From contig OX359247.1 of the NCBI GenBank assembly GCA_947179485.1, positions 6,291,060 through 6,355,059 on the forward strand: a DNA stretch of 64,000 nt, in the 5' to 3' direction. Origin of the DNA: Allacma fusca. Lineage: Eukaryota > Arthropoda > Collembola > Symphypleona > Sminthuridae. A model generated the notes under the pieces. It was not told where the DNA came from, made no database searches, and saw only the letters and a list, made by a program, of their open reading frames with translations. The position numbers were made by a program, and so were the translations under genes. Shown here one piece after another: positions 310 to 60,448 of the stretch (position 1 is its first letter; each line of letters opens with the position of its first letter).

Positions 310-3231
310 ATGGACAAAGACATTCAGCCGAACTTTCAGGCAGATGTAGTTCTGATTACTGGAATTAGTGATCAGACACAGCCGAACACTGCGAAAGAAT
401 ATGTCATCGAGGAGCTGAATACTGAACTTGGATACACTAATACTGCCATTGACACCTCTGGAAATCAGGACATGATAATTGGACAGTGCCTAGTTTGTTA
501 TAGAAAAGTTGACTTTACCCCTCATAAATCACCCTTGGACCAGTTTAATGATCTTCTTCAAATCTTTCGAATCTCCATGGCTTCCTTTAAGGGGATGCAA
601 AAGAGCGACGAAGTATTACCATCACAGTTGTTTTGCGCTACTTGCACCGAAGACATTCTGACGGCTATGGATATTTTGGTCAGAATTGAGTCTCTTCAGA
701 ATGATTTGAAAATTGTAACAAAGTTCCTGCAGCAAAAGCTCCTGGGAAATCAGGATTTCAGTACCGATGGGACGGATAATACAAAATGGATTAGTAAAAC
801 GCGTCGAGTACTTACTCAATGTAAAATATACTTACCTTTATATACAATGCAAAATTACTTTTTAAAATCAAAATTAACCTGTAGTTTTAATTAGTTTAGT
901 GTTTAGAGCATATAAAGACTTTAAAAGGATGTAATCTTAAGGTTTATTCCTATTTCCATCAATGAAAATATACATAAAAATTAACTTTCGCTAGGTTTTT
1001 CCTCTTGTGAGGTTCCTATCAAGCCCGAGAAGGATGTGGCTCGGCATATCCAGCGAAAATTACGAAAGCCACGCTCAACACCCACTCGCAAAATCAAAAA
1101 GGCATTAAATAAGCATGGAGATCTTTTTTCTGAAGGGGTACTTAAACCTGAGGACAATGCAAGCGCTGACGTTGACGTTTCCCCAAGTGTCAGTGAAGAA
1201 GAAACGGAAATTAATAATTATTTGAGTTACAGTGATTCACAAATTAAAGAGACCTGTGGGAAGAGTCAGAATGGAACAGACGGTTTAAATCAAAATGGAA
1301 TAATTCTAAAAATCAAGCCAAAGAAGAAACTCGCGAAATTGCTTAATTCTCCTATGGAAACGAATAGCCCTCGTAGTGTAGCCCCAGCGTCTTCATACAG
1401 GACCTACAAGGATGGAAAAGTTATCTCGCTCGATTGCCCGTACTGTAAAAAAAAACTTACTAGGGAAGACTTTTGTTTGAAGTCTGGCGAATACATTTTT
1501 AAATGCCCCTTCCCAGAGTGCTGCGATCGAATCATGACAAATTTTATCCATGTAGTAAGACACCACGAATCCCTTTGTCCATCTATGCCCCAAGCCTTAT
1601 ACTCAGGGAAGCGAAAGCGGAAAAGATTGCATTTGAAGAAAGCTTTAGCTGATGGGTCAGAAATATCCCATCCTTGGGGTAAAGGGTTTATTCATAATGA
1701 ATACAAGGAGGTTGTGGCCTTCGAATGCCCTCAGTGCCAGATTAAAATGTCTTATTCGGACTTCCAGACTGAATCTGGAGTATTTATTTTTAAGTGTCCA
1801 TGGGTATCTTGTAGTAAAACCACAAAATGCTTCTCTAATTTGTGCATCCATCATCGAGCTCACTGTGTAAATGGGTATTCTGTAGGAAGAATCGAATCCC
1901 TTAATAAGAAACCTCGGATTAGTCGTATATCTTCCAAAGAGCTTTCTAATGAAGAACTTGGATCAAACAAGGGTCTGGAATTCCCTAAAGCTGGTCCCTT
2001 AGTTTCCTTTGAGTGTTTTCGCTGCGAAAAGAAACTTACGTATAGCGAATTCTTGAATGTGGATACCAGCGCTTATATTTTTAAATGCCCCCCAACCTGC
2101 TGTGATAAGGTGTTTTCCTCATTCCCAAATCTAGCTAAACATCATGAGGCACAGTGTAGACGTAGACCTATTGATGTCCCGGATACTGATGTCAACATTC
2201 CATCGGATCACATATCAACAGAGCTTAAACCCCTAGTTGGTCCAGAGCCGTCAAATAACAATGCTAACATAGCCGGTCCACTAAATTCGTTTGAGTGCAA
2301 TTATTGTCATAAAGAATACAGACGGGAAGATGTTCAACAGAACTGTTCTGGAACTATCTCCTACAAATGTGACTTACTAAATTGTGACAAAGCATTTCCA
2401 ACGTTCATTATACTTCAAAATCATCACGAATCAACATGTCCCAAGCGACCCGAAGATGCTTTCGCTTGTAATCTTTGTGATAAAAAATTTAAATCGTCAG
2501 GTAACATGCGGTCACACATGATAAGTTTTCACACTCACAAATATGAATTCTACTGTGAAATATGTGGGGCGGGTTGTGTTACCAAATCCACTTTTTACGC
2601 TCACATGAGAACTCATGTTAACCATAGGAAATTTAAGTGTCAGCACTGCCCAGCAAGCTTCAAGAAAAAGGATCACCTTCAAAATCACGAGACAAGACTA
2701 CATACCACTGACCTTCCTTTCATGTGCGGTACCTGCGGTCGACGCTTCAAAGTCCGACAGGGTTTGAGGCAGCATGAACAAAATGTACACAGTTTGGACG
2801 GACCATCAATTTGTAAGCTCTGTAATAAAACGTTTGCTAGCGCAGCGTATGTTCAAACCCATATAAGGACTACTCATATGAAAATGAGGGACCAATCTAA
2901 AAAGAACCAATCTGTCGAACCCGGTGACACAGATGGTCATGATAATGGTAATAAGCGTAAAAAGAAAGACGTCGTTGATAGCGGCAGGAAGCGGAAAAAG
3001 AAAGTCAACGTTGACAGTGGTAGTAATAGTAGCAAGCGTAAAAAGAAAGATAACGATGATGGTGACAGCAGCCGTAAGAAGAAAGTGAATGATGCCAGTG
3101 GTAGCAAGCCTAGAAAGAAAGCTATAAAGGTTGCATTATTCAAGAAGAAGAGTCCCATGAAACCCGAGAAGTCTCCACAACGGGATGTGGATGTAGTTGT
3201 CGACGGGGTTTTTACAGACGACATGGGTTGA
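310..3231 (+). CDS. ZAD and C2H2 zinc-finger protein 1 (915 aa, two exons)
   Basis: Exons 310-820 and 995-3231. The phase-1 intron splits a Cys codon (T|GT). The ATG at 310 has the context CACAATGG and is the first ATG; the frame is open upstream but without an earlier ATG. Residues 60-112 are a zinc-associated domain (ZAD) with C60-x2-C63-x45-C109-x2-C112, normally a dimerisation module in arthropod zinc-finger transcription factors. Residues about 318-655 hold four tandem copies of an unusual module of about 50 residues: CxxC, then C-x4-C, a short spacer, and a paired His and Cys (HHxxxxC). Residues about 662-798 carry five ordinary C2H2 fingers. The C-terminal 115 residues are Lys/Arg/Asp/Ser-rich repeats (several KRKKK blocks), a likely nuclear localisation tail. 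The product is probably a nuclear DNA-binding regulator; target genes cannot be read from sequence. A paralogue with the same ZAD spacing and intron position follows at 4104. Confidence 0.9.
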
Positions 3232-3415
3232 CAATGCCACAACATTAGTAAATTTATTTGTATTTAGTACTCATAGTTACTTTAAATTACACACACATAT
3301 ATATATCTATATAATTATATATTAATTATATCTAAAATTTATTATACAACACATATCATTATCATATCTAACTCAAACATGTTAATTTTTCGAATCTACC
3401 TGCAAGGAATCGATA

Positions 3416-3421
3416 AATAAA
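3416..3421 (+). terminator. Polyadenylation signal of zinc-finger gene 1
   Basis: AATAAA lies 185 bases after the stop codon, in AT-rich 3' flanking DNA. It is the first strong signal after the gene. The cleavage site was not determined. Confidence 0.5.
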
Positions 3422-3891
3422 AATACGTTGAATGCGCGTAAGTAATCATTTTGACATAACTGGAAACTGAAAGAGCTCTGTGCCTTAGGGTTATTGTAAA
3501 TTCTAATTATTGTAGGTTCAACCTTCAGAGTGACATAAGCGGACCCATACATATGTTGGTGTACTTACTAAACGTAAACTTACTTTAAATATTATTATTT
3601 TATTATTATTAAATTCGTTAAAAAATGTTCTTAACAGAAATTACATTGAGTACATCATTTGATCATTTTCTGAAGCTGACTAGATGGGCAAATACATACT
3701 ATTTAATGGCGGGAAGGATGAGTAAATATGACCAGACTTTTATATGCAGTCTTGTCGCGCGGTTCTTTCTTATTGGTGTACGAATTCCTTTAATAGACAC
3801 TGACACATTATTTGATGGTGTAATTTGTAATTTCCAACTTTTAAGGGACCAACTAGTCTTCCCCGTTAAGTTTCATTATTTTCATTGACAC

Positions 3892-3964
3892 TAATTTTGG
3901 GCGTATAGAGATTAAAATCAGTCACTCTGTTAGGGCAAAGGTTTAATTTATACGCCCAAAATTA
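3892..3964. repeat. Perfect 16-bp inverted repeat (hairpin)
   Basis: TAATTTTGGGCGTATA at 3892-3907 is repeated in perfect inverted form at 3949-3964, with a 41-base loop that itself contains ATTAAA/TTTAAT. It may be a very small MITE or a cruciform element in the upstream region of the second zinc-finger gene. No clear target duplication was found. Confidence 0.7.
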
Positions 3965-4103
3965 TCCATAAGCATCGCGAACATGTGAGATGTGAAGTGA
4001 AGTATTCCAACCAAATTACTGCACCCGGATGTTAACTATAATTATTACAGCAAATCAGTAAATTTACTGTGTCTACTTAATTTATTTCAAAGTAGTTCCA
4101 AAA

Positions 4104-6404
4104 ATGGAATTTGCAAAATATGTTCCCACACTTCCTACAATTAAATCTTGTGACGAGTTCCAACTTCCTCAGGTGACATTAGAGGAGGTCACTGCAGTAA
4201 AGACTGGCTTGGAGAATGGGAAGGAAGAATGGAAGGGTCGGTGTTGGGTATGTTCAAGTCCGCTGAAGTCATCCCCTGAATCCGATGAAGAAACGGTTCT
4301 CAATGTTTTTGAAGACTTATGTACCATATTAAATTTCACGTGCGTAACATCTCCGGATGTCAATAAGGAGATAAAGAATACGGACATTTGCAAAAATTGC
4401 TCGGACTCTGTAAGGACCTGTAGAAATATTCTTCGGCACGTACAGCGGCTGCAGAGGAAATTTAAGGGGATACAGAATCAGCTCAAAAAATATATTGTAC
4501 AAAGTTATAGCATAATTGAACGGGATGGTAGTTGTGATCAGAAGGACACCAAAGTTTGTGTTAAAAAGACCATGGTACAATGTAAGTTACAATGAGAATG
4601 CTTTGATGAAGTACGTATAGTAGGTATTTAATTTTGTCCGGTTTCGATTCCACCAATGGCACTCGAAATTTATCGTTTTTGTTATTATTATATATTTCTG
4701 CGGTAAGAGTGTCCGATTAAATCACCTATTGTTTCTGGATCTTGAAATTCATTTGTATGTAAATGCATTTTTGACCTTTTGTTTTTGCAAGGTTGGAGTG
4801 AGTGTAGAGTTGATGTGGCCCAACTCGCGAGGGTGGATGAGAAATTTTTGGAAAAGGGTAGTAATTCCTGCGAGAAGCCCAGGCGACGGCCAGGTAGGCC
4901 TCCTAAAAAACGAAAAGTTGACAATATTGACATAAAATTGGAGCTACCATTGGTAACAAATGACCTGGATATGAAGTTACTGGTTGGAAGCACAAAAGAA
5001 AATGAGAGATTCAATGAGCCTGATCCAGAATTAGAAGAGCCGGATTTTTTTGAAGAAAACGTGACATCAGAAATTTCGTACGGGACAGCCACTGATTGGA
5101 CACCCGAAGTAGATGATGATAAGTTGCCCAGAAAAAGCAGTAGTCTAGTTGATGATAAAAAGTCTTTGAAACAACCATTCAAGTGTGTGAAGTGTGGAAA
5201 AGTGTATCGAACTCAAGTATTTTATAACGCTCACATGGAAAATCATCCGGAAGAACTGCCATTTCCATGCGGACAATGTGGTCGGAGATTCTCTATGAAA
5301 CAACGATTAGCTGTTCATGTTCGTAGCTCTCATGGGGACAGCCGGACTCATAGTGACAAAGACAGATTGAAAACTATCGATAATTGTCCTCATTGTGGCC
5401 TAGAATTCGTCAGCGTAGAAGATACTGGAAGTGAACCTCCAAATGACAAGATTAATTCCGATATTCCCAACAAAGTAGTGCCTGGCATAAAACGAGTTTA
5501 TAAAACTGAGAAACAAAAGCGCAACCATATCCGAGCTTGCAAAGAAAATCCCGTGGTCAAGTCAAAATCCTCAAAAGATACGAGGCTACCTTGCGACCAA
5601 TGTGAGAAAACATTTGTTACCTCTGCAGCACTTAGAAGTCATATAGCAAGTATTCATAACAAATCATTCAAATTTTGTTGTGATATTTGTGGCATGGGCT
5701 TTCAAGTGAGTAGTATGCTCCAGAGACATGTGGAATTTGTTCATTCAACAGAAAAAAAATTCGAGTGTGACACATGCCACGTGAAATTCAGAAGATCCCA
5801 TCAGCTCTTTTACCATCAAAGAAGACACACCGGGGAACTTCCATACATTTGCGAATTTTGTGGAAAGGGCTTCCATGTCCAAGAAAAATTGAGACTGCAT
5901 ATAAAGATACACTCTGAAAAGAAGACAGTCCCGTGTCCGAAATGTGGAAAGTTGTTTCTGTGCAAGCAATACGTTTCAAATCATATTAGTACATTTCACA
6001 ATAAAAGTAGAAAGGGTCGCATCTACAGAAGGAATCCAACTAAGAAGCGTCCCGAAGACATCGCCAAAGTCCAAGCAGAAGTTATTACTTTCTCCAGAAA
6101 CGAAAATTCCAAGAAAGCCCTAGTCATTCGCTCTTCTCAAGAACAACATTTAGAGAATACTACAGAGATAGATCTTCTAGTGGCAGGAGACGAGATAAAT
6201 TCCAACAAGTGTGTAAGCCAAATGATAAATTTAGGAAAAGTCCCCATTGGAATCGCAGAAAATGCGGTGGCTGTCCAGGAAACTTCTATCTTAGTCGAGG
6301 AAAAGGAGTCAGCACCTGATGACCTACATACCACCTTGCAGGAGAAACCCCCCGAATTTATTTTTGATGGCAACAACTATGTTCTAGAGTACATTGTTTC
6401 CTAG
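4104..6404 (+). CDS. ZAD and C2H2 zinc-finger protein 2 (696 aa, two exons)
   Basis: Exons 4104-4581 and 4792-6404, again with a phase-1 intron splitting a Cys codon. The start ATG has the context AAAAATGG. The ZAD has C47-x2-C50-x45-C96-x2-C99, the same spacing as in the upstream gene. Exon 2 opens with a basic segment containing PGRPPKKRKV, which reads as an AT-hook core (GRP) merged with a nuclear localisation signal. Seven full C2H2 fingers follow: two near residues 203-258 (first FKCVKCGKVY), then a run of five after an incomplete CPHC finger. The C-terminal 130 residues are acidic and finger-free. Likely role: nuclear, sequence-specific transcription regulator that dimerises through its ZAD. 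Identity to a named insect gene cannot be claimed from sequence alone. Confidence 0.92.
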
Positions 6405-21833: not shown

Positions 21834-21841
21834 GTCTTTAC

Positions 21842-22772
21842 TAGTGTTTCTGATCGAGTTCGGGCAACTCGAGGTTTCGAGTTCGAGTCGGGTTCGAGTC
21901 GAGTTCGAGCCTAATATTTTTGGTACCGTTTGCTTTCGAGTCGGTTTCGGGTATCAAGTTTTCGACCCGAAAAAATCGGGTCGAGTTTGCAAAATCTACC
22001 GGTCCCTACCAAAACTCGAAAGTAAAAACTTATTTTGGAATTATTGATTCATGTTACCTTAACAATAAAAATTGGCCTTCCTGCCACCTCTGATTTAAAA
22101 AATATGCAGTTTTTGTGGATAACATCAAAGAAAGTCTCTGTACGGAGCAAGTATTTGTACATGACCTTATAACACTCCTCATACCTAAGTTTTATTAGCG
22201 TACGAAGCTAAGTACCCTAATATGGCAAGGATGACGCGTGAATTCTTGGGTATTCCTGGCATTCCTATCGCGCGTGCTTTTTCGTTGGCTCGACATTTTA
22301 ACACTGAAATATGGCTACTCAAGTAGATACGATATGGAAGTTACCTCTTTTAATATCGTGGTTAAAGTTGGCATATAACAAGTTTATCGAGACAACAATG
22401 AAGATCATTACGGAGGGATGGCCGGTTGTACCAAATTATAATGAAAATTTGAAATTATAATAAAAAAAAATTAAAACGACACAGTGATTGCTGCATTACT
22501 GTATTTTGCTTTTACAAAAAAAAATGCTTTGTTTGATGCTCATATTTCGGGATTGTGTGATGTTGTATTTTACGTAAATTTGGTGTCTGGTTTCGGTTCG
22601 AGTTCGAGTCGATTTCGGGTATAACATTTCTTAACGGTCTCGGTTTCGGGTACAAAAAAATTTCCCGACTCGAATGTCCCGAGTTCGAGTTCGAGCCCAA
22701 AAGTGGAGTTTACACCGGGTTTTTGTTTCGAGTCGAGTCGAGCCCAACTATTTGTTACCGATAGAAACACTA
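21842..22772 (+). mobile_element. hAT transposon relic with 8-bp target duplication
   Basis: The element is flanked by the direct repeat GTCTTTAC at 21834-21841 and 22773-22780, the 8-bp target duplication typical of hAT elements. Its ends are inverted (TAGTGTTTCT...; right end AGAAACACTA). Just inside each end lies an array of TCGAG/GAGTTCGAG motifs, in opposite orientation at the two ends. The middle keeps a decayed plus-strand C-terminal transposase piece near 22206-22326: AKYPNMARMTREFLGIPGIP followed by IARAFSLARHF. This matches the hAT dimerisation region (YPxLAxMAxDxLxIP...ERxFS), with the usual Ser-Glu-Arg degraded. It is non-autonomous at 931 bp. Confidence 0.85.
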
Positions 22773-22780
22773 GTCTTTAC

Positions 22781-38330: not shown

Positions 38331-38709
38331 TAAGAGCATTTGCAAGGCTTAACCAGATTAGCCTATCCACATGTAAGCCACATTTTGCAATGATTTCAAT
38401 GATCCAATTCTACGGGTGCTCTATTACTGGAAAATTGTGTCCGATGGTCCTGACATTTCCTGTGTTGGGTAATTTGTCATATGATTATAACAGTACTCAA
38501 AAATCAACTCCAAATATTATTGCATTGCATTGGTAATGGCAGTAAAGAAATGGAATTGTTCTATACAGGTAAGTTAAAACATATCATCAGGGTTATAGTG
38601 CAAATTTACATTCTATATTGCGTCAACAACATACATACAACTAATTCCATTCGATAATTACAACTAAATACATGAGTATAATACATTATATAAAAACAGC
38701 AAATTCTTG

Positions 38710-39540
38710 CTATAAAAGGACGTATTTAATTTCGGGCATTTGCTTGGAACTTGAGTAGAAATCAAAGATGAGTCCTCCCGGTTGCCTGTAGTCAGGATAG
38801 ATCTTCCGGCACAAGGAAGTCGCGGGACCCTGTTTGGAATATATATCTGTGTAATAACTTGTACAGGAGTTGTGCCCGTTGTAACAATATTTTGTTGACA
38901 TTACAGATTCATGAACTCATAAACATAAATGAGGAAACTGAGCGAATTTTTTCGGAAATAAACAAATGCCATACTTACATTCAGCATGAACTCAATGCGG
39001 ATCCAAGTTTTCGCAGGGCAACGGAGAGGTTCATCAAAGTCAATGTAGAAGAGTCGATCCTGGTAGGCTTCAATCGTCCTGTCCACTGAGGTCATCAGTC
39101 TCCGACTCTTTGCCGAACTCAAGTCTGCCACCTCATAAACGTTGAACTTAAGGCGGTAGACAGCCGAGGATGTAGCGTAAGGCCCGTAGAAACCAAGGCT
39201 TGTCACCCCAACGGGTTTTGTTGCTTTAAATCTGGAATTAAAAGTAAAAATTGTATTAAATTATTATCACCCTCTTTGAACGGGTCAATATTTGCATTGT
39301 ACAAATGAAAGGACTCATTGAATATAAGTGAGTATTATCATCAAGTGATACTTACGTCACGGAGAAGGCCTGGTTACTGAAGTCTTGGTATCTGGTTGTG
39401 TCAATTTTTTTATAAATTTGACTGAATTTCTGTTGGGGAGTTGTGAAAGGGTCGTCCATAATGCTCCACATGGTAATATCTGACAAGTGATTTAAGGCTT
39501 TCGGACCTCGGACCAGCGTGTAAACTTCGTTACCCGGCAT
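38710..39540 (-). CDS. PHR-domain-like protein A (185 aa, three exons)
   Basis: Exons 39540-39356, 39231-38979, 38829-38710; the first junction splits a codon after its second base, the second falls between codons. The start is MPGNEVYTLVRGPKAL. From residue 50 the protein follows the PHR fold pattern known from Pam/Highwire/RPM-1 and BTBD proteins: RYQDF...AFSVTFKATKPV, then TSLGFYGP, VYRLKFNVYE, KTWIRIEF, FDFYSSS and the closing KQMPEIKYV, which parallels the typical GQIPELIFY end. Unlike BTBD1/2/3/6 there is no BTB domain and unlike Highwire no RING; the gene encodes little more than one PHR-like domain. No signal peptide, so probably cytosolic; partners unknown. It is nearly identical to copy C (MPG versus MPS, CPA versus CPE). 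Family call is from pattern, moderately sure. Confidence 0.8.
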
Positions 39541-39704
39541 GTTAATTTATGAGAGAAGAATAAAATTAGCTAAAAACGAGTCTAACCAATACCAAACAAA
39601 AAGGTAAATATATTATTGAAGGCTTCTCAGGTTGAAGTAAATTAAGCGTGAGCAGACGAGGAACGTTTAGTAAAAGATGACTTCGCTCAACCTGGGTGTA
39701 ATTC

Positions 39705-39712
39705 CTTTTATA
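39705..39712 (-). promoter_or_regulatory. TATA box of PHR-like gene A
   Basis: TATAAAAG on the minus strand, about 165 bases before the ATG, with a conserved upstream CTTCAAGACAC and downstream GAAGTCATCTTTTACTAAAC (initiator-like TCATCT). The same arrangement occurs at copies B, C and the pseudogene. Confidence 0.75.
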
Positions 39713-39899
39713 ATCTCTGTGTCTTGAAGAGTGAATGACCAGATGTAATGAGTTTATTTCAAAATTTATTCATGAGAATATTTGCGCATCAGCTCATATT
39801 TAGTTAATTGTAAGCACGTAAATACGTGTCTGCAGTAACTACATACATCGCTTTCTTTGCCTAGGAAATTACATGGAATTAATTTCTCGGGAAATGATT

Positions 39900-41030
39900 T
39901 CCCAGGCATATATGAACTAATAATACTCGGGTTACCTTGGATTGATAAGAGTTCAAATAAATAAACTTGTATATGTACAGCAACTACTACAAGTACAATG
40001 GATTTAAAGTAAGTAACATTTCCGCGTTAGTGATAACATAAATTTATTGTTACTATGAAATAAATCTAATTTCCCTGTAATTTTGGTATTGATTAATACG
40101 TTTGGAGGAAATACGGATAGCAGATATTAAGCTTTATTTAAACTATTTTCCTGCCTAAAACAATTAATTATCTACTTACTCATTCGTCGGAAATAATTTC
40201 AACAAGGATGACAATAGACCATTCGTCGGATAATTTTTATGTGTGAACATACAACTTACGTAGTTATTGTACAATTACTGGCATTCATATTGCAACTAGG
40301 TAACGTAGCATTAATAATTATTTGTGAATTAAAATGGTGTTAAATACTTTGATAATATTACTTATTTTTTGCTAAAAATGAAATATATTTTTATATAGAA
40401 ACTACGTCTTGTAGTTTCATAGTCAGCCTGGCATCTTACGGATGAGTACAACAAAATACTTTGTGTTTTTCGTTTACTCCTCTGATTATACCCCTCCGTA
40501 ATCACAGATGGAAATGTTCTTTTAATTCGGAAAGAAGTGGTATCTACATAAAGTATTTAATACAGTTTGTCAAACTTTTAGCATATCATTGCTCCTTGCC
40601 CCTTTTATTGTTCCGGTAAGGTTAAATCTAATTTTCTGAATAATCTTATTTAATTCGTACATGAGGATATACATTAACAAGGGCTTCCTGATCCATGGGT
40701 CTCATAAATTATTATATTTTTAACTTTATCTTTACTGCATGTCGATTATTGATTGCTGCCTGTCGAAAGCTCTAGAATAAAAGCAGTCGAGTTTCAGATT
40801 AGGCACCTTCCATTAAAATAACATTATATGGGTTTCAATAACTTGATCAATATCATTTTTTCCGTTTTTAATGTTACAATAGTTTTACGACATACGTATG
40901 AATCATTTCTGAAATTATACATATGTCATAACATCGACCCGTAGTGAGTTTTATAGAACTGGAAAAACTGACTGGCAGGGGTCTTTACTCGTACCAACTT
41001 TTTAAGTGATTATGTGATTATGAGCTTCCA
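39900..41030. other. Spacer between PHR-like genes A and B
   Basis: AT-rich, no gene and no clear repeat unit recognised. It lies within the loop of the inverted duplication. Confidence 0.4.
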
Positions 41031-41580
41031 CACAATGACCTTGTAGCAATAGGGTTTGAACTTTCAAACCGTTAGGAGTGCAATAATTTCCTGCAGGGTT
41101 TTTGCCAAGTCCAATTAAGTTTTTAAAGAGATACACTTCTAGAGATCCGTCTACCAATTTACACATTTTGAGACATTTTTTTCATCTGTGAAAGAAATCC
41201 ATTTTTTCCGAAACTCAAACAGCTTCCAATTTCAGTAGTTGACTTCAAATCGAAAATTATTAGCATGAGAAAGTTGGGTTCTTTATTAATCGTTCAAAAC
41301 TGCTGAGGAAATGTATACATTCATCCCTCTCCCAGTTTTACGTAATATTTAATTAATAAATAACCCTTTTAAGGATTTAGAGTATTATTGACACTTAAAG
41401 TTAACAGGAACGCATACTAAATATGCGTTAAATATGTTTCATTACTAAATATGTTTTACAAAAAATATAAACCGAAATTTCTATATCTAATTATATTAGA
41501 TAACATTACGAGATACTATTATTAATAATAATAGAGATAATATTATTAATATTATTGTAGAAATGGCGTCATAGTCATAA

Positions 41581-42427
41581 CTATAAGAGAACATATTTAA
41601 TTTCAGGTATCTGTTTGGAGCTGTTGTGGAAGTCGAAACAAACACCCTCACTCGTGTAGTCAGTGTAGATCCTGCGGCAAACAGAAGTGACAGGACCCTA
41701 AATTCAGAAAGACATAATATAATATACCTGTGTTTTTGTAATGGAAATAAATAAAAGAATAAGTATAAACATCCTATTATAAAAAGATTGTAAACATACG
41801 TTCATCATGAATTCAATGCGAATCCAAGTTTTCACAGGACAGTAGATCGGGTCATCGAAGTTTGCATAGAAGATTCTATCCTTATACGCTTCCACTCTCT
41901 TGTCGAAAGAAGTCAGGATTTTCGGATTCATTCTGGATGTCATGCTTGCCATTTGGTAGATGTTGAACTTAAGTCGATACACTGCGGAGTTCTTTTCAAA
42001 AGGTCCAAAAAAGCCCAGGGCTGTCAAGCCGATAGGTTTTGTCACTCTGAATCTGAAACCAAGATTAAAACACCGTGTAAAATTATTGTAAGCCTGTTTA
42101 TTATTAATTATTGTTCAAATGCCGGCTTGTCTCACTTCGAAACTTATTATAAACAAAATATTGTTCTGAGACTAGTTCGAGCTTGCCAAGATGCTGATGC
42201 TGCTTTTACAATTTGTAGGTACTTAAATAGAATTGAGCTTACGAAACAGAGTAGGCCTGGTCAGTGAAATCCCCGAAACGGGCAGTGTTAATGGTTCTCC
42301 AGAGTTTTACCATTTTCTCCTCGTCGGTCGTGATAAGGTCGTCAAGAATGGCACGCAACTTCTCGTCAGAAACGTTTTCTGCGGCTTTCGGACCTCGGAC
42401 CAATGTACAAACTTTGTTGCTCGGCAT
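41581..42427 (-). CDS. PHR-domain-like protein B (184 aa, three exons)
   Basis: Exons 42427-42243, 42052-41800, 41697-41581, with the same exon lengths (185 and 253) and phases as genes A and C. Begins MPSNKVCTLVRGPKAAENVS. Conserved PHR-like positions: ARFGDF, SFRVTKPIGLTALGFFGP, VYRLKFNIYQ, KTWIRIEFMMN, CFDFHNSSKQIPEIKYVLL. It is clearly diverged from A/C (about half to two thirds of residues shared by eye), especially in the first exon. All splice sites are canonical (donors GTAAG and GTATG). It sits between the arms of the A/C inverted pair, in the orientation of A. Function as for gene A is unknown. Confidence 0.8.
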
Positions 42428-42592
42428 GTTAATTTATTAAAGAATAAGACTAGCGAAATGTGAGGTTAAGGAGTCAAAAATGACAACACAAAAAGTAAAT
42501 ATTATTATTGACTGTTTCCCAGGACGGAGTAAGTTAGCTGTGAGTTGTTGCCGGACGTTCAGAAAATAATAGTTTTTCTCAAATCCGGTGTA

Positions 42593-42600
42593 CTTTTATA
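42593..42600 (-). promoter_or_regulatory. TATA box of PHR-like gene B
   Basis: TATAAAAG on the minus strand, about 170 bases before the ATG, preceded by CTTCAAGGCAC. It matches the promoter layout of the paralogues. Confidence 0.75.
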
Positions 42601-43010
42601 CTCCCTCAGTGCCTTGAAGGGTGAATCATAAATTTTAATGAATTAATTTTAAAGATAAAAAAATTTGCGCATCGATCTGTGTGTAGTATTAATTGTAAGC
42701 ATGGATTTGTTTATGTCTGCAGGTACCTTAGCTCCGTTGTATCTCTTTTTTACGTGAGAAATTGTGTATAAGCTAATTTCTCGGGAAAAATGTTTCCCTG
42801 ACATTTGATAAAATGTTTCCCTGTTGCTTTGTTAAATAGTGGTAAATTTAGATGAACTACTAATAGCCAGATTACCCTCTTGATTGACAGAAGATCTAAT
42901 AATATTTCGTTAGAACTGTCACTACTGTATAAGTAGAATTGATTGACAGTTGACAGTAACAATTTCCACTGCAATGATAACATAATTGTTATTTGAAAAT
43001 AGCCACCCTG

Positions 43011-43439
43011 GAGTTGATATTATTCCAGTTAAAACGTTAAGTTGGTGAAAATATGACTCGAAAAATAATCGTGAATGAAATCATTCTCCTGTCGGAGACT
43101 GTTGGTACTTACCTGTACATATCAAGACTGTTATTTTTATGAATGAATGCCGAATGGGCTACAGGACATTGTATACGACATGTATGTATATAGGAAGGAG
43201 GTGTATTTCATTAATGATAAATTAATATGGAAATTAAGATTAGATTTACAATTTATTTTATCACCCTTACACAAGAAAACAATGTTACTCTCCAGCAACT
43301 GGAATTATAGTAGCAACAGTACAACTTTAAATCTTTGTTTATTTTAACTCACCAACCCTCGGTAATCTTATTTGCTCGTCCGAGATTATCATCAGTTAAC
43401 AAAACAATCAGGAAATTTATGTTGAACTCGATACATGAG
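43011..43439. other. Spacer before PHR-like gene C
   Basis: No gene recognised; the frame at 43147-43347 has no motif. The right arm of the inverted duplication starts near 43440. Confidence 0.4.
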
Positions 43440-43618
43440 AAATTCAATTCTCGAGAAATTAATTCCATATAATTCCGTAAAATAAAACGGCGTAATTAAA
43501 GTTACTCCAGTTATGTACGTGCTTAACACTGAGACTAAATATGAGCTGATGCGTAAATATTTTTATCTTCCAAATAAATAAATTACAATTGGTTATTCAC
43601 ACTTCAGGGCACATGGAT

Positions 43619-43626
43619 TATAAAAG
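43619..43626 (+). promoter_or_regulatory. TATA box of PHR-like gene C
   Basis: TATAAAAG with CTTCAGGGCAC upstream. About 30 bases downstream lies GTCATTTACT, a plausible initiator (TCATT), giving a predicted 5' untranslated region of about 140 bases. Confidence 0.75.
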
Positions 43627-43790
43627 GGACATCAGGGGTTGAGTGAAGTCGTCATTTACTAAACATTCCTCGTCTACTCACGCTCAATTTACTTCAACCT
43701 GAGAAGGATTTAATAATAATATTTACTTTCTTGTTTGGTATTGATTATACTCTTATTTAGCTAATTAATTTTATTCTCTCATAAATTAAC

Positions 43791-44533
43791 ATGCCGAGTA
43801 ACGAAGTTTACACACTGGTCCGAGGTCCGAAAGCCTTAAATCACTTGTCAGATATTACCATGTGGAGCATTATGGACGACCCTTTCACAACTCCCCAACA
43901 GAAATTCAGTCAAATTTATAAAAAAATTGACACAACCAGATACCAAGACTTCAGTAACCAGGCCTTCTCCGTGACGTAAGTATCACTTGATGATAATATT
44001 CACTTATATTCAATGAGTCCTTTCATTTGTACAATGAAACAATCGAAGAGGGTGATAATAATGTAGTACTATTTTTACATTTAATTTCAGATTTAAAGCA
44101 ACAAAACCCGTTGGGGTGACAAGCCTTGGTTTCTACGGGCCTTACGCTACATCCTCGGCTGTCTACCGCCTTAAGTTCAACGTTTATGAGGTGGCAGACT
44201 TGAGTTCGGCAAAGAGTCGGAGACTGATGACCTCAGTGGACAGGACGATTGAAGCCTACCAGGATCGACTCTTCTACATTGACTTTGATGAACCTCTCCG
44301 TTGCCCTGAGAAAACTTGGATCCGTATTGAGTTCATGCTGAATGTAAGTATGGAATTTGTTTATTTCCGAAAAAATTCGCTCAGTTATATATACAGATAT
44401 ATATTCCCAACAGGGTCCCGCGACTTCCTTGTGCCGGAAGATCTATCCTGACTACAGGCAACCGGGAGGACTCATCTTTGATTTCTACTCAAGTTCCAAG
44501 CAAATGCCCGAAATTAAATACGTCCTTTTATAG
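43791..44533 (+). CDS. PHR-domain-like protein C (185 aa, three exons)
   Basis: Exons 43791-43975, 44091-44343, 44414-44533. The product is almost identical to protein A: MPSNEVYTLVRGPKAL, TSLGFYGP, VYRLKFNVYEVADLSSA, KTWIRIEFMLN, then LIFDFYSSSKQMPEIKYVLL. Both copies are intact with consensus splice sites, so both are probably expressed. A few silent and replacement differences, and more in introns and flanks, argue against a simple assembly duplicate. Being arms of one palindrome, A and C are candidates for gene conversion. See gene A for the family assignment. Confidence 0.82.
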
Positions 44534-44895
44534 CAAGATTCTCCTGTTTGTATATAATTATACTCATGTATTTAGTTGTAATTATCGATTGTAATTAGTT
44601 TTATGTATGTTATTGTTGCAATGTATAATGTAAATTTGCACTATAACCCTGATGGTATGATTTAACTTACCTGTATAGAACAATTCCATTGCTTTACTGC
44701 CATTACCAATGCAATGCAATAATATTTGGAGTTGATTTTTGAGTACTGTTATACATAATCATATGACAAATTACCCAACACAGGAAATGTCAGGACCATC
44801 GGACACAATTTTCCAGTAATAGAGCACCCGTAGAATTGGATCATTGAAATCATTACAAAATGTGGTTTACATGTGGATAGGCTAATCTGACTACT

Positions 44896-45670: not shown

Positions 45671-48600
45671 TTATAATATTTCGGGGTACACACAATTAAT
45701 TGTATAAGTACCATTCCCTGGACCCTGTAGTTCCCCCTGGTCCTCAGTTTTATCCACAAATACTTTTACATTGTCTCGAGAATTGGCTCTAGAAAATGCT
45801 ACATAGAGTTGACCATGAGTAAAAACGGGTTTTGATAACCAAATACCTACTTTACTAAAACTTTGACCCTGTGACTTGTTTATAGTCATGGAGAAGCTTA
45901 GCTTGACAGGAAATTGCCTCCTTCGTAAAACAAACGGGTATTCACCCTCATTTGAAGTTAGTGTAATTCGGGGAAGAAACATGGTTTCCCCTTTCGCCCT
46001 TCCTGTTAAAACATTAGCAAATATAAGATTCTCCTTGAGTTCTGTAACAATCAAACGTGTACCATTACAGAGACCTCTCTTCGTATTTAAGTTTCGGAGT
46101 AACATAATAATTGCTCCGATTTTAAGTTTTAGAAAATGAGCAGGCATTCCATTCGGATTAATTGAGTTTAAATACTCTACAGGATAATTCTGTACATCGC
46201 TTTCATTGGCACTATCAACTGTATCTGCACTGCAGTAACATTTCTCTACCCCTGACAATAAGTCTAGGACTTTATCATTGATTTTCGATGAATCGACATT
46301 GAGAGGACACAATATTGCCCTATTGGCATAATCTTCTATGTTTGTAGGAGTTATGCCGTCAAAAATCTCGACAATTAAATTACTATTTGTAATAAGGTTT
46401 TGGGGAATTTCCACCATATCATCTTTATCTTTAATTCTCTTGTTGAGCTTACCGTCTCCAACCTTTAGAATCCAATCAGAAAAGTCCATGTCATACCGTG
46501 CTCGCATATTTACATTCAACTTAAAAGTTGAGAAACATTTCCAGTTAACACTGCTTTTGATATTTGATTCAATTATTGAAATTCGATTCCCACGTTTGAC
46601 AACATTTAAAATTTGTCGAAAATCCCCTCCAAGAATTATTAATTTTCCACCAAATGGTCTATTATTATCCATAATTTCCTGTAGAAGCCTATTAACTACA
46701 TCCAAACTGTACTTGCTTGCCATCGTGCATTCATCCCAGATTATTAACTGAGATTTGCGAATTCTATCCGCCTCCACAGAGTTAACTCGCATTGAGGACG
46801 TGGTGTCCTTGTTTGTATTCGGAGGTATGCAAAATTGAGAGTGGTAAGTCCTTCCACCTTTCAAAAGTGTAGCTGCAATTCCCGTTGAAGCAACTGCAAT
46901 CGCTATTCCTTGCAGCCCGTTAAACAGATGTCCACGTACATAACACATTAATGTTTCATACACAAAGGTTTTTCCGCTCCCCCCAGGGCCATTTAGATGA
47001 ATACAATTGTTTGTGTAATTATTCGATTCAATTGCCTTTATTGCAAAATTTACCACTTCTTTCTGCTGCTCGTTCAGCTTCTCATAATTTGCTGCAAATG
47101 AAATTTTTTCTTCGTCAATGTCATAAGACTCATACATTGTTGATGTCATGTAGCCTTGTAGTTTTGGCATTCCAAAATCTTTTTCACCAGATTTTTTGTG
47201 CATTTTAAAAATGCTTTCAATTTCATGCAAGCATAATTGCTCGGCAACGTTTTCAGTGTGATCACGACGAAAGTCTTCAATAAGATGATCTTTATAGTGG
47301 TTAAAAATATCTATAGCGCTTGAAGGAGAGCCGAAAACACAAATAATTGCAAAAAGTTGCCGCAACTGCTTAGGCATTTGATATACTATTGCCTCGTTCA
47401 TAGCATGGTACCATTGCTCATCATTTTCCACTAAGTTCAATTTCGAACATGCATCTTGGAATGAATCACATAAACGTCCATCTACAGTTCTTAAATCATC
47501 AAATGATGTAGCTCCCCTTTTGTGGAGTAAGAGTAATTTTATAGCGTATTTTTGTATATTTGAAGGGCTCACATTAAACATGCGGCCGATAACATGCGGA
47601 TCATATCCGTGACAACGTTTTTTCCAAACTTTGCACTTCTTCATTGTTATTGGATCAGTTCCATCTGTGAAACAGTAGTAATTAGGTATATCTGCATAAA
47701 GATATTGCCTTGCATTCACATCTTGTTCATTCAACTTAAAATAAGCAGATAGATTAGAATCTTTTACATTTTCTAATGCCTGTGCTTCATCACCATCGCG
47801 ATAGTACAATGTTTGCTCATTCGGTTCATGAACATGTAGACGATAAATGGTGTGAGATTTGTCCTGCATCCAGAACCCAAAAATCCTCCACATTGCTTCC
47901 GGAGCGCTCACATATCGAGCATTTATGTGTTGGCTTATTTCATCTACATTGACTGTAGTTTCAGTTTCATTTAAAAGCAAATCAGCACAATCATGACCCT
48001 TGTAAACGTACTTGTAGATGTACTTTACAGCTTTAACAGAAGAACAAACTTCCACATTAATATGACAATTATACTTAAGCAATAAGTATGGGTTATGTGG
48101 TACCACATGTTGGTTTGTAAATTCATTTCCTCCCTTATGAAACTTAATTCCACTATTTCTGCGCTTGTACAACGGGAACCCATCAACACCTGTATCAGTG
48201 ACATTACAAAATTCTTTAGGAAATCGTTTGGTACAAATACCATTACGCATACATTTTTGGGAACATGGTCCGTGAAGCATATGCGTTGTTACTGCCTCGT
48301 AAAGCTTAGGTTGCGTTTGTTTACATGGAATTTCGGCTGAGACGATTTTGTCCACACAATTAGGATCTTTCAGATCTAAATCCCCACCTATCCATAAAAT
48401 GTGGGCGTGAGGAAGGCCTCGTTTTTGAAACTCAATTACATACACATATCCTCTGCATTTTCCAAAAATTCCACGCTTGGTAATATCTTCAATTAACTCC
48501 TTTAACTTTAAATTAAAAACACGTGCAACGATATCAGGTCTATCTGATGGTTGTTGACCTGGCAACAAATGTGCCATTATTTCTTTCCATTTCGGATTGC

Positions 48601-50461
48601 AAGTCATAGTAATAAATAAATCCGGTTTGCCAAATTTTCTGACAATCGCCATTGCATCCTGATATCTTTGTTGCATATTTCTGGGACTGCCAATGTAACT
48701 TGATGGAAATATGACAGTACGGCCAACTCCTTTTCCAGTTGCAGCTGCTCTGTTTGTCACATATTCTTGAACAGAAGAATATGTATCCGCTTTTAATCTT
48801 TTTTGATTATATCGCAAAAAGTTCAGCCTATTTGCTTCCATTCTGCAATACCAATCCACCATCAATTGGTGGGTTAGTTTTCCACCAGATAGCAAGTGGT
48901 TTGTCTGGTCTTTTCGTATTTGTAAATGAAAGCTGAAATACATCATTTCAGTAATTTTTGTTTTCCCATCACTGGTTTTCAATCCATAATTCCAGCCTAT
49001 CTCCCCTGTTGGGAAAAATAAGGGATAAGTAAGTCCATCCAAGAACTCATTGAGAATATTAATATTTTTCATTCTTTTTTCCTCTCTCAAATAAACTCGG
49101 ATATCCCGTTCAAATGGAGGTTCGCCCTCGTCATTTGTAAATACCATAGCAATTTCGTTAGCTTTGGCTACGTTGTACCTTCTAGGGTCATAATTATTAT
49201 TTGTCGAAATTTTCATTGCAAGATTTTTTGTATCTTTTCCGGCTGATTGCATTTCTTCCTCTACTTCTTTGAGCATTCTGTAGCAAGCAACTAATTTATT
49301 ATTTGCCTCCATAAATGTGTGCAAAATTTGTAGCACTGTATCTTTACACCCAGAATTAGCTGGGTTTTCCATTCTGTATGATGATGCTATCTCACTATCA
49401 TACACATACAATTGAGCAAACTTTGGATTGTCACCCTGTTTTGGGTACAATGGTCCACTACAATGATACAACTGACCATGAAGGCGGAAAACATATGGGC
49501 CACCTAGCATAGGCTGTACGTTTCCACCGCAAGATGCCATTGCAATAGCAGAGTTATATGAACGAATATTTTCCATAAAATGTTTTTCCCGAAAGAGTTC
49601 TGCCACAGTTTCGTGTGGAGGCTTCATTGGAATCAATGTATCAATTTTTCCATGATGGCAGCAAGTCAAAAAACTCAAGAATTTATTTTCACCGGATCCG
49701 TTAGATCTGCCCTCTTCTGCAAAATGCAATGCATGACAGTTTCGGCATTCTTTATCCATATTTCCGATATTATATTCGGTAACATCGCTCTCATCAATAT
49801 TGATTGTCAGACCACAATATTCGGTTTGTTCAAGTGTGCGCCTATTTGCTGTTAGCCTACGAACACGTTCGGTCTCGTTTATACATTCCCGAATAGGAGC
49901 ACGGTAGTTTTGTAGATTAGTACTCAAAACCTCTCGATTTTCAGCGTAATTTGCTCTCCGAGTTACAATAATAATTGAATGATTCTCAACACGATAATCT
50001 CGCAAGTTAGCACTCAAGGTTTCTTGGTTTTCAGCATAATTTGCTCTCCGAGTTTTATTTATACTTGAGTTATTCTCAGCCCTGTAATCTTGCAAGTTAG
50101 CACTCAAGGTTTCTCGGTTATCAGCGTAATTTTCTCTCCGAGTTTCATTTATACTTGAGTGATTTTCAGTGCGGTAATCTCGCAAGTTAGCACGCAAGGT
50201 TTCACGATTATCAGCATAATGGGCTCTGCGGGTTTCATTAATACGTGAGTTATTGTCGGCACGATATTGTCGTCGTGAAGCATTGATAACTTCTCTGTTG
50301 CTGGCATAATTAGCTCTTCGAGTTGCTAGATTACTTGCGGTAGTGTGCGCTGGTTGAGCAATTTCTGCAGTATCATTATCGAACGAAACCTCGTCATTAA
50401 GACCATGGCGTACATTCGAGTGCATAGTCTGCTTACGACTTCTTTTGTTCGCGGGATTCAT
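45671..50461 (-). CDS. Helitron Rep/helicase protein (1596 aa, intact)
   Basis: One uninterrupted frame from the ATG at 50461. Residues about 40-200 are 30-residue repeats (ETRRANYAENQETLSANLRD type). The Helitron-like N-terminal domain follows; then the Rep domain with GKPDLFITMTCNPKWKEI, the HUH motif GLPHAHILWI (H685, H687) and the catalytic tyrosine region KYIYKYVYKG (about Y814-Y820). The C-terminal PIF1-type helicase has Walker A GPGGSGKTFVYE (1158-1169), Walker B IIWDECTM, and LYVAFSRANSRDNVKVFV near the end. Rep nicks and joins single strands and the helicase unwinds, giving rolling-circle type transposition. All key motifs are intact, suggesting a recently active autonomous copy. It lies next to PHR-like gene C. 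Host PIF1 is excluded by the fused Rep domain. Confidence 0.96.
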   Translation of the reverse strand: MNPANKRSRKQTMHSNVRHGLNDEVSFDNDTAEIAQPAHTTASNLATRRANYASNREVINASRRQYRADNNSRINETRRAHYADNRETLRANLRDYRTENHSSINETRRENYADNRETLSANLQDYRAENNSSINKTRRANYAENQETLSANLRDYRVENHSIIIVTRRANYAENREVLSTNLQNYRAPIRECINETERVRRLTANRRTLEQTEYCGLTINIDESDVTEYNIGNMDKECRNCHALHFAEEGRSNGSGENKFLSFLTCCHHGKIDTLIPMKPPHETVAELFREKHFMENIRSYNSAIAMASCGGNVQPMLGGPYVFRLHGQLYHCSGPLYPKQGDNPKFAQLYVYDSEIASSYRMENPANSGCKDTVLQILHTFMEANNKLVACYRMLKEVEEEMQSAGKDTKNLAMKISTNNNYDPRRYNVAKANEIAMVFTNDEGEPPFERDIRVYLREEKRMKNINILNEFLDGLTYPLFFPTGEIGWNYGLKTSDGKTKITEMMYFSFHLQIRKDQTNHLLSGGKLTHQLMVDWYCRMEANRLNFLRYNQKRLKADTYSSVQEYVTNRAAATGKGVGRTVIFPSSYIGSPRNMQQRYQDAMAIVRKFGKPDLFITMTCNPKWKEIMAHLLPGQQPSDRPDIVARVFNLKLKELIEDITKRGIFGKCRGYVYVIEFQKRGLPHAHILWIGGDLDLKDPNCVDKIVSAEIPCKQTQPKLYEAVTTHMLHGPCSQKCMRNGICTKRFPKEFCNVTDTGVDGFPLYKRRNSGIKFHKGGNEFTNQHVVPHNPYLLLKYNCHINVEVCSSVKAVKYIYKYVYKGHDCADLLLNETETTVNVDEISQHINARYVSAPEAMWRIFGFWMQDKSHTIYRLHVHEPNEQTLYYRDGDEAQALENVKDSNLSAYFKLNEQDVNARQYLYADIPNYYCFTDGTDPITMKKCKVWKKRCHGYDPHVIGRMFNVSPSNIQKYAIKLLLLHKRGATSFDDLRTVDGRLCDSFQDACSKLNLVENDEQWYHAMNEAIVYQMPKQLRQLFAIICVFGSPSSAIDIFNHYKDHLIEDFRRDHTENVAEQLCLHEIESIFKMHKKSGEKDFGMPKLQGYMTSTMYESYDIDEEKISFAANYEKLNEQQKEVVNFAIKAIESNNYTNNCIHLNGPGGSGKTFVYETLMCYVRGHLFNGLQGIAIAVASTGIAATLLKGGRTYHSQFCIPPNTNKDTTSSMRVNSVEADRIRKSQLIIWDECTMASKYSLDVVNRLLQEIMDNNRPFGGKLIILGGDFRQILNVVKRGNRISIIESNIKSSVNWKCFSTFKLNVNMRARYDMDFSDWILKVGDGKLNKRIKDKDDMVEIPQNLITNSNLIVEIFDGITPTNIEDYANRAILCPLNVDSSKINDKVLDLLSGVEKCYCSADTVDSANESDVQNYPVEYLNSINPNGMPAHFLKLKIGAIIMLLRNLNTKRGLCNGTRLIVTELKENLIFANVLTGRAKGETMFLPRITLTSNEGEYPFVLRRRQFPVKLSFSMTINKSQGQSFSKVGIWLSKPVFTHGQLYVAFSRANSRDNVKVFVDKTEDQGELQGPGNGTYTINCVYPEIL

Positions 50462-52194: not shown

Positions 52195-52810
52195 CCTCAG
52201 GTTTAATATTGGTCACAATGGGTTTCTTGACCTCATATTGACCAATATTGGTCACAATGGGTTTCTTGACCTCATATTGACCAATATTGGTCACCATGGG
52301 TTTCTTGACCTCATATTGACCAATATTGGTCACCATGGGTTTCTTGACCTCATATTGACCAATATTGGTCACCATGGGTTTCTTGACCTCATATTGACCA
52401 ATATTGGTCACAATGGGTTTCTTGACCTCATATTGACCAATATTGGTCACCATGGGTTTCTTGACCTCATATTGACCAATATTGGTCACCATGGGTTTCT
52501 TGACCTCATATTGACCAATATTGGTCACAATGGGTTTCTTGACCTCATATTGACCAATATTGGTCACAATGGGTTTCTTGACCTCATATTGACCAATATT
52601 GGTCAGAATGGGTTTTTGACCTCACGTAGACCAATATTGGTCACAATGGGTTTCTTGACCTCATATTGACCAATATTGGTCAGAATGGGTTTTTGACCTC
52701 ATGTTGACCAATATTGGTCACAATGGGTTTCTTGACCTCATATTGACCAATATTGGTCAGAATGGGTTTTTGACCTCATGTTGACCAATATTGGTCACAA
52801 TTGGTCTCTT
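52195..52810 (-). repeat. 39-bp tandem array, left arm
   Basis: About 15 units of TTGACCTCATATTGACCAAT plus ATTGGTCACAATGGGTTTC. Each contains the perfect 16-bp palindrome TGACCAATATTGGTCA. Because 39 is a multiple of three, frames stay open on both strands; the minus frame reads VTNIGQYEVKKPM repeatedly. Units at the left (51880-52150) are increasingly degenerate, as expected at the decaying edge of an array. Confidence 0.95.
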
Positions 52811-52934
52811 GGCCTCAGATTCATCCATTCGTGCAACGGCTGGTTTACTAGTCGTTGGGTCAAGAAACATAAAGCAAAGACAAATTTTGTCAGTGCAAAT
52901 TCCTTCATTTTTTTACATGCAGAAATGTTTTAGA

Positions 52935-53480
52935 TACAAATTGTGACCAATATTGGCCAATCTGAGGTCGAGATACAAACTGTTACCAATATTGGCCAAT
53001 CTTACTTCGAAAAACCAATTGTGAACAATATTGGCCAATTTGAGGCTGAAATACAAACTGTTACCAATATTGGCCAATCTTACTTCGAAAAACCAATTGT
53101 GAACAATATTGGCCAATTTGAGGTCGAGATACAAACTGTTACCAATATTGGCCAATCTTACTTCGAAAAACCAATTGTGAACAATATTGGCCAATTTGAG
53201 GCTGAAATACAAACTGTTACCAATATTGGCCAATCTTACTTCGAAAAACCAATTGTGAACAATATTGGCCAATTTGAGGTCGAGATACAAACTGTTACCA
53301 ATATTGGCCAATCTTAGGTCGAAAAACCAATTGTGAAGAATATTGGCCAATTTGAGGTCGAGATACAAACTGTTACCAATATAGGCCAATCTTAGGTCGA
53401 AAAACCAATTGTGAACAATATTGGTCAATCTGATACCAAAATATCGATTGTGACAAATATTGATATAGGCCAAGAAACTA
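52935..53480 (+). repeat. 39/78-bp tandem array, right arm
   Basis: Alternating 39-bp units forming a 78-bp higher-order repeat (ACCAATATTGGCCAATCTTA... then AACAATATTGGCCAATTTGA...). In inverted orientation the units align with the left array (shared CCAATATTG, TCACAAT, GGTTT, CCTCA). The plus frame reads VTNIGQSYFEKPIV and related 13-residue units. Confidence 0.95.
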
Positions 53481-59219: not shown

Positions 59220-59992
59220 CTATCAGAGGACATGTTTAGTTTCAGGTATGTATCTGTTTGAAGTTGTTGTGGAAGTCGAAGATAAAACCCTCGTTTGTGT
59301 AGTCGGTGAAGATTTCGCGGCATACGGAAGTGACAGGACCCTATCAATGAAATTCAGTACATGTCGGTATATATGGAAGTGTTTCTAATGGAATTAAATC
59401 AGATATAAAAGTAATTATGCATGTTTGTAGTATAGACATCCTATCCACATCACTGTCATCACCTATCTGAATCACAAAATCCAGATATTTTAATTGTAAA
59501 AAGATTGCAAGCTTACTTTCATTGTGAACTCAATGTGAATTCAAGTTTTGTCAGGACAGTTAATAGGTGTATCGAAGTTTGCATAGAAGATTCTGTCCTT
59601 ATACGTTTCCACCCCTCTTATCTACAGAAAGCAGGATTTTACGATTCACTCTGCATGTCTGGCTTGCCATCTGGTAGATTTTGAGCCTGAGTTTTGAACC
59701 CAATAGATTTTGTTACTCTGAATATCAAACAAAGATTATGTATATAAGGCATATAAGAATTGCTTTGAATATGCGAAAACATACACTCAAAACGCAGCTT
59801 CATACTGAATCGAATTAGTAACGGTTAAATAGCCAGTGTTAAGGGAAACATTGTGTTAATCTAGAACAAGTACCGTCTGTATTGTTGTAAGCATTTAATA
59901 TTAATTGTTGTTCGAATACTGGCTTGTCTTATCTCGAAACACTATAAACAAATATTATTCTCGAATGACCAGTAAACGTTGTTACTGGGCAT
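59220..59992 (-). pseudogene. PHR-domain-like pseudogene D
   Basis: Orthologous in layout to gene B. The start ATGCCCAGTAAC at 59992 survives, but most of exon 1 is deleted. Exon 2 (about 59704-59518) lacks a segment of roughly 55 bases covering the LGFFGP region and has substitutions. Exon 3 (59342-59220) has an insertion (CAGATACATACCTG) that shifts the frame before the terminal PE(I/T)K block. Upstream, the TATA box is still present at 60151. It is non-functional as a protein. Confidence 0.85.
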
Positions 59993-60150
59993 GTTAATTT
60001 ATTAAAAAATCAAGTTAAGTAAATACAGGGATTACCAATTTAAAAATTACAAGTAATTATTATTGTTGGCTGTTTCCCAGGTCGGAGTAAGTTATCTGTG
60101 AGTTGTTTCCGGGCGCTCGGAAAATAATGGTTTCACTCAAGGCTGTGTGC

Positions 60151-60158
60151 CTTTTATA
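60151..60158 (-). promoter_or_regulatory. Relict TATA box of PHR pseudogene D
   Basis: TATAAAAG on the minus strand, preceded by CTTCAGGATAC, in the same position relative to the start as in genes A-C. Confidence 0.6.
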
Positions 60159-60448
60159 ATCCTGCAGTATCCTGAAGAGCGAATGATCAATTGTATTACA
60201 TTTATTTCAAAGATAAAAATATTTGCGCATCGACCTATTGTATATGTAACATTAATTGTAAGCATGCATTTGTCTACGTCTGCAGGCACCTTAGCTCCGT
60301 TGTATCTCGTTTTTCCATAAGAAACAATGTATCAACTAATTTCTCAGGAAAAATATTTCCCAGACATTGAGTTTGATAAAAGGTTATATCGATCAATTCA
60401 TCCATATCCATAATTATCCCATATTGTTTTGTTAATAGTGCTTTTAGA

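Follow-up and report, generated by a model that had tools for sequence, protein, structure and literature searches.

A stretch of 64,000 nucleotides from chromosome 3 of the springtail Allacma fusca (C10:6291060–6355059, hereafter the window) was analysed, and it was found to hold a small palindrome with three three-exon genes, A, B and C, whose predicted products are short stand-alone PHR proteins. The arms are inverted and about 1.5 kb long, and the loop of about 3.5 kb between them contains B (Table 1). A and C each encode 185 amino acids, identical at 183 positions, and their coding sequences are 99.3% alike with only four differences, whereas the 184-residue product of B shares 56–57% identity with them. 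The first-pass annotation, made from the letters alone, had described two near-identical three-exon genes in arms and a loop of these sizes, with a diverged third paralogue in the loop, and the coordinates, gene models and measured identities all agree with that description; it had missed, however, a fourth, broken copy, the B-like pseudogene D, in which exon 1 breaks off behind its first codons, an internal deletion affects exon 2 and the frame is interrupted by a stop codon.

Alignment of the arms showed 94.5% identity between 38354–38859 and 44889–44383 and 89.2% between 38936–39904 and 44386–43436, and a repeat search returned them as ungapped pieces with 85–99% identity. The outermost 267 bp of the left arm were considered as a dispersed repeat, but the genome search did not support this, as only the two arms match. 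The genome searched comprised 91 contigs of 392.74 Mb (C8 is chromosome 2, C10 chromosome 3, C12 chromosome 4, C5 X1 and C9 X2); the published assembly qeAllFusc8.1 has 95 scaffolds and 392.79 Mb and was built from 80-fold PacBio HiFi reads with a quality value (QV) of 58.7 and a chromosome 3 of 66.08 Mb (PMC10427803). An assembly artefact is an unlikely source of the duplicated arms, since the copies are inverted, the arms are 89–95% alike, the flanks differ and the HiFi assembly has this QV.

Searches of the whole genome, in which only the best candidates were scored so that all counts are lower bounds, revealed at least eight intact stand-alone genes, at least two pseudogenes and at least one promoter remnant, in keeping with the expanded family that had been proposed from the window. 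Six intact genes (A, B, C, E, F and G) form one 63-kb cluster on chromosome 3 (C10:6329.7–6392.5 kb), and all 12 of their modelled introns have GT-AG borders. Outside the window, E and G lie on the minus strand and encode 184 amino acids each, while F (C10:6369838–6370596, plus strand) encodes 156, with 29 codons of exon 1 deleted in frame and the PHR part intact. Also in this cluster are pseudogene H, similar to D and damaged in the same manner in exons 1 and 2, and remnant a′, of which an A-type upstream region and roughly ten initial codons are left. With B as query, two distant relatives, I and J, were recovered on chromosome 2; their three-exon plan is that of the chromosome 3 genes, their first exon is related, and across exon 2 they share about 24–28% identity with the chromosome 3 members. 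The stand-alone proteins range from 156 to 201 amino acids with one PHR domain each, and their distribution, as read from the sequence, shows that this type is old enough to occupy two chromosomes. A search of viral contigs with protein C found no relative.

Hidden Markov model scans showed that PHR (PF08005) was the top Pfam match of all seven proteins scanned (B, C, E, F, G, I and J; E 2.5e-4 to 5.6e-7); A differs from C at two residues. Four of the seven exceeded the curated cut-off of 23.6 bits (F 24.4, G 26.2, J 28.2 and I 30.7 bits), and besides PHR no Pfam model matched any scanned protein above its cut-off. Comparison of the PHR part of the six chromosome 3 proteins with that of four BTB-BACK-PHR genes of Allacma fusca, using hhalign, gave E 3.4e-8 over 121 columns, a score attained by none of 200 column shuffles, and E 4.6e-7 with one of these genes, C9, alone. 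Landmarks of the PHR domains of the Allacma fusca genome are kept, namely (G/S)-F-x-G-P, a terminal Q-(I/M/V)-P-E-I and, close to the beginning of the domain, R-(Y/F/L). By these sequence comparisons the family proteins are divergent PHR domains, homologous to undoubted PHR domains across the whole domain, and they presumably fold as a PHR beta-sandwich.

Several results weigh against this assignment. B, C and E fell just under the Pfam cut-off (B 23.1 bits, E-value 1.2e-4, 0.5 bits under; C 22.3 bits, E-value 2.2e-4, 1.3 bits under; E 22.1 bits). When the four BTB-BACK-PHR genes were compared singly, C9 alone matched significantly. A search of PDB sequences with the six-member family profile gave no PHR chain up to E 1, and single proteins C and B gave none up to E 10; RAD1 and the other PDB sequence matches were weak and were discarded as relatives. 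Structure prediction with AlphaFold2 covered exon 2 of B, which is half of the domain. For this model, the second and third ranks of 998 went to solved PHR structures of mouse MYCBP2, in a tie with other folds. A Foldseek search with the same model had no hit at E 0.001, and PHR structures were absent from the best 50 of 780.

To place the family, the other PHR genes found in the genome were considered. Four have BTB exons, namely C10a (4.48 Mb), C12, C10b (59.83 Mb) and C9, the BTB domain being supported by Pfam in three and by tblastn in C10a. All four have further exons between BTB and PHR, to which the Pfam BACK model gave no match; we take these stretches to be BACK-like from their place and their mutual likeness. 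A fifth gene at C10:60.27 Mb has a PHR domain with a BACK-like stretch upstream and no BTB found in the 10 kb examined; because of this stretch, the candidate (C10:60270696) was rejected as a further stand-alone gene and classed as BTB-BACK-PHR-like. A Highwire-type gene on X1 has two PHR regions and an RCC1-like frame that was recognised by eye only.

Intron positions, for which splice sites were read from the DNA and placed by protein alignment, showed that intron 1 (phase 2) and intron 2 (phase 0) occupy the same aligned places in the family, C9 and C12; the introns of C10b are consistent with them, and C10a has neither. In a midpoint-rooted tree the eight stand-alone proteins formed one clade (98/94), joined with C9 on X2 (100/99). 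The shared intron positions and phases, together with the grouping with C9, suggest that the family derives from the 3′ end of a BTB-BACK-PHR gene, with its final three exons but minus BTB and BACK, which is the simplest reading of the sequences. BTB and BACK queries gave nothing convincing in the 124-kb chromosome 3 region (best E 0.041, short) or the 30-kb chromosome 2 region (best E 0.047, or 0.012 without composition correction; short and located downstream of I and J). In all four BTB-BACK-PHR loci these queries recovered BTB and BACK, partly as self-matches. The interpretation given in the first-pass annotation, of stand-alone PHR-like proteins that could act as decoys or adaptors, is partly supported. 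Some details speak against the proposed derivation: the intron 1 acceptor of C9 is weak, the intron 2 acceptor of C10b is uncertain, the intron 1 acceptor of I and J could sit 6 bases further on, and the branch of C9 in the tree is long.

The N-terminal stretch of the family, about 46 residues with an LVRG motif, is encoded in an exon 1 shared by the chromosome 3 and chromosome 2 genes. Comparison of the exon 1 products of the two chromosomes over residues 1–62, a span that takes in the first PHR residues, gave E 6.7e-5 and a probability of 64%, and none of 100 shuffles attained the score. Exon 1 was also considered as a remnant of BACK, but this was not supported, the match being no better than those of shuffles (the score was reached by 34 of 200 for residues 1–47 and by 95 of 100 for exon 1). 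Being shared by both chromosomes and without likeness to BACK, the N-terminal part appears characteristic of the stand-alone family. Between A/C and B/E/G it is more variable than the PHR part.

Selection was tested on the six chromosome 3 genes. The proportion of nonsynonymous differences (pN) was lower than that of synonymous differences (pS) at p<0.01 in 14 of the 15 pairs, with omega values (NG86) of 0.06–0.29; the remaining pair is A–C, which has its four differences only. These sequence differences show purifying selection on the chromosome 3 genes in 14 of 15 pairs, and F is among them in its comparisons with A and C, despite its 29-residue loss. The possibility that the copies are functionless, decaying or artefactual could draw on the two pseudogenes and one remnant within the same cluster; it is, however, very improbable in view of eight intact reading frames, the complete set of GT-AG borders in the six chromosome 3 genes and this selection.

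The near identity of A and C could have arisen by gene conversion between the arms, or C (or A) could have been duplicated recently in inverted orientation. Blocks A-B-C and a′-E-F are alike in order and orientation, and their spacers match. When the sequences upstream of A, C, F and a′ were aligned (first 120 alignment columns excluded, as a′ is not homologous there), A sided with a′ and C with F at 24 of the 26 informative sites (24:1:1). Since a′-E-F thus has A-type and C-type upstream regions in corresponding places, the A and C positions both seem, from the sequence, to be older than the block duplication, which argues against a recent duplication of either gene. At coding sites, by contrast, A and C agree against F at 17, C and F against A at 3, and A and F against C at 0, so that the A/C arms are more alike than their age implies. 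The gene body (coding sequence with introns, plus the beginning of the 3′ flank; 699 columns) gave 34 A=C, 8 C=F and 13 A=F sites, as against 17, 50 and 29 in 374 upstream columns, a significant shift (Fisher p 9e-8). High A–C identity is limited to the gene body; the upstream regions are about 76% alike. The outermost 135 bp of the arms, 99% identical and ending abruptly, the outer segment matched only by the two arms, and the 17 upstream sites that A and C share against F fit a recent duplication, which we nevertheless consider improbable given the upstream groupings and the contrast between upstream and coding identity. Because the gene bodies of A and C are alike while their upstream regions pair with a′ and F, it is well supported that a palindromic A-B-C block was copied into a′-E-F and that the A and C gene bodies were then homogenised by conversion from arm to arm.

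The action of the proteins may be approached through their proposed parents. In PMC1257465, the PHR domain of BTB-BACK-PHR proteins is proposed as a substrate-recognition module of Cullin 3 ligases, and topoisomerase 1 is named as a reported binding partner of the PHR-like region of BTBD1/2; PMC3002306 used larger C-terminal fragments and cites the binding of BTBD1 to Cullin 3. In the mechanism proposed here, the 3′ end of a BTB-BACK-PHR gene would have been set free without BTB and BACK and would have acquired a new start and the LVRG-containing N-terminus. Its PHR beta-sandwich would bind the same kind of partner as the BTB-BACK-PHR adaptor, but, lacking BTB, could not carry this partner to Cullin 3, and the palindrome would maintain the dosage of the stand-alone genes. 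Competition for the ligands of the full-length adaptor, as a decoy or buffer, would be the likeliest action, and this reading is favoured, by analogy, because the PHR part alone should bind and yet not recruit Cullin 3. The overall explanation, in which a conserved stand-alone PHR family arose from a BTB-BACK-PHR 3′ end, underwent conversion in a palindrome and acts by decoy, is given a probability of about 0.5. Its most far-reaching form, an ancient springtail family of PHR decoys on two chromosomes in which palindrome conversion keeps dose and sequence while the proteins titrate the ligands of the parent adaptor, is put forward as a tentative and on the whole doubtful proposal.

Two other functions were weighed against decoy action. 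The family might have become a soluble beta-sandwich with a new partner unrelated to ubiquitin, perhaps in one tissue; the strong divergence of the family from PHR domains elsewhere, seen in its borderline Pfam scores, and the TATA-like box found in eight of nine aligned upstream regions, that of G excepted, would suit such a change, but the retained PHR landmarks would not, and we regard it as rather unlikely. It might instead serve as a new two-part adaptor, its PHR domain holding the ligands while its N-terminal LVRG stretch brings to them an effector, perhaps another ligase or a scaffold. The conservation of exon 1 between the two chromosomes, in a sequence not recognisable as BACK, speaks for such a role; yet F remains under purifying selection without its 29 residues, from which it can be argued that most of the N-terminal part is dispensable, and this part is less uniform than the PHR part when A/C are compared with B/E/G, so that an adaptor of this type appears unlikely. 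Decoy action would mean that a ligase substrate-recognition domain has been turned into a free-standing, amplified gene family, and natural competition with the parent adaptor would then be directly testable in springtails. What these proteins retain of a protein-degradation adaptor would be just its partner-binding end, and the family may have taken on a function of its own.

Two known PHR-containing architectures can be compared with the family. Among the genes of the BTB-BACK-PHR type in Allacma fusca, C9 and C12 share with it the two intron positions and phases, with which C10b is consistent, and C9 groups with it in the tree. Databases appear to list ‘PHR domain-containing’ proteins in other invertebrates. 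No stand-alone PHR family was among the matches listed in a literature search of open PMC papers. The C-terminal PHR domain is also the point of likeness to BTBD1/2/3/6-type proteins (PMC1257465), but the family has no BTB or BACK, a different N-terminus, clustered copies and strong divergence. PAM/Highwire/RPM-1 proteins, with RCC1 repeats, two PHR domains and RING (PMC2627918), share the PHR domain, and the tied MYCBP2 ranks concern this group; they differ in this layout from proteins of 156–201 amino acids with a single PHR domain.

The palindrome has parallels as well. In PMC5490193, 11 collinear blocks of Folsomia candida are palindromic and Ks values (synonymous divergence) gave no support to concerted evolution. 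Like these and the palindromes of the human Y treated there, the Allacma fusca structure has inverted arms with paralogues, and the A/C mosaic points to arm-to-arm conversion as on the human Y; it is set apart by its place on an autosome and by arms of only about 1.5 kb, and in pointing to conversion it contrasts with the Ks results of Folsomia candida. The mosaic would thus be a small case of arm-to-arm conversion on a springtail autosome, in a group where concerted evolution of palindromes had been argued against for Folsomia (PMC5490193).

Table 1. Coordinates of the genes, pseudogene and palindrome arms (positions in the window unless a contig is given)
Feature	Coordinates	Strand	Remark
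Gene A exon 1	39356..39540	-	from start codon up to phase-2 intron
Gene A exon 2	38979..39231	-	first part of PHR domain
Gene A exon 3, to stop	38710..38829	-	gene model
Gene B exon 1	42243..42427	-	gene model
Gene B exon 2	41800..42052	-	84 full codons, modelled with AlphaFold2
Gene B exon 3, to stop	41581..41697	-	gene model
Gene C exon 1	43791..43975	+	gene model
Gene C exon 2	44091..44343	+	gene model
Gene C exon 3, to stop	44414..44533	+	gene model
Pseudogene D, B-like	59226..59992	-	sequence comparison
Region upstream of D	59974..60385	-	77% identity to B upstream region
Palindrome left arm with gene A	38354..39904	.	sequence comparison
Palindrome right arm with gene C	43436..44889	.	sequence comparison
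Outer arm segment (267 bp)	38354..38620	.	genome-wide matches only in arms A and C; absent beside F
Gene I	C8:56160978-56161703	-	search with B
Gene J	C8:56162748-56163463	-	search with B

Scans of the window with Rfam (gathering threshold) and for tRNA gave no match. A TATA-like box (TATAAAAG or similar) lies upstream of A, B, C, D, E, F, a′ and H, that is, in eight of nine aligned upstream regions, and most of these regions have a GATGCGCAAAT-like stretch 5′ of it; the upstream region of G aligns poorly with those of the other members and has no such box. Near G lies one copy of a 936-bp element (C10:6389549–6390484) whose other copy, inverted and 100% identical, is at 21840–22775 of the window, flanked by an 8-bp repeat. 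The element has the ends TAGTGTTTC...GAAACACTA and looks like a recent element of the hAT type. Between C and D, the minus strand at 45674–50461 encodes a 1596-residue Helitron frame with Helitron_like_N and PIF1 helicase domains, and two arrays of a 39-bp satellite lie in opposite orientations at 52205–53462. The left end of the window (1036–6404) holds C2H2 zinc-finger genes.

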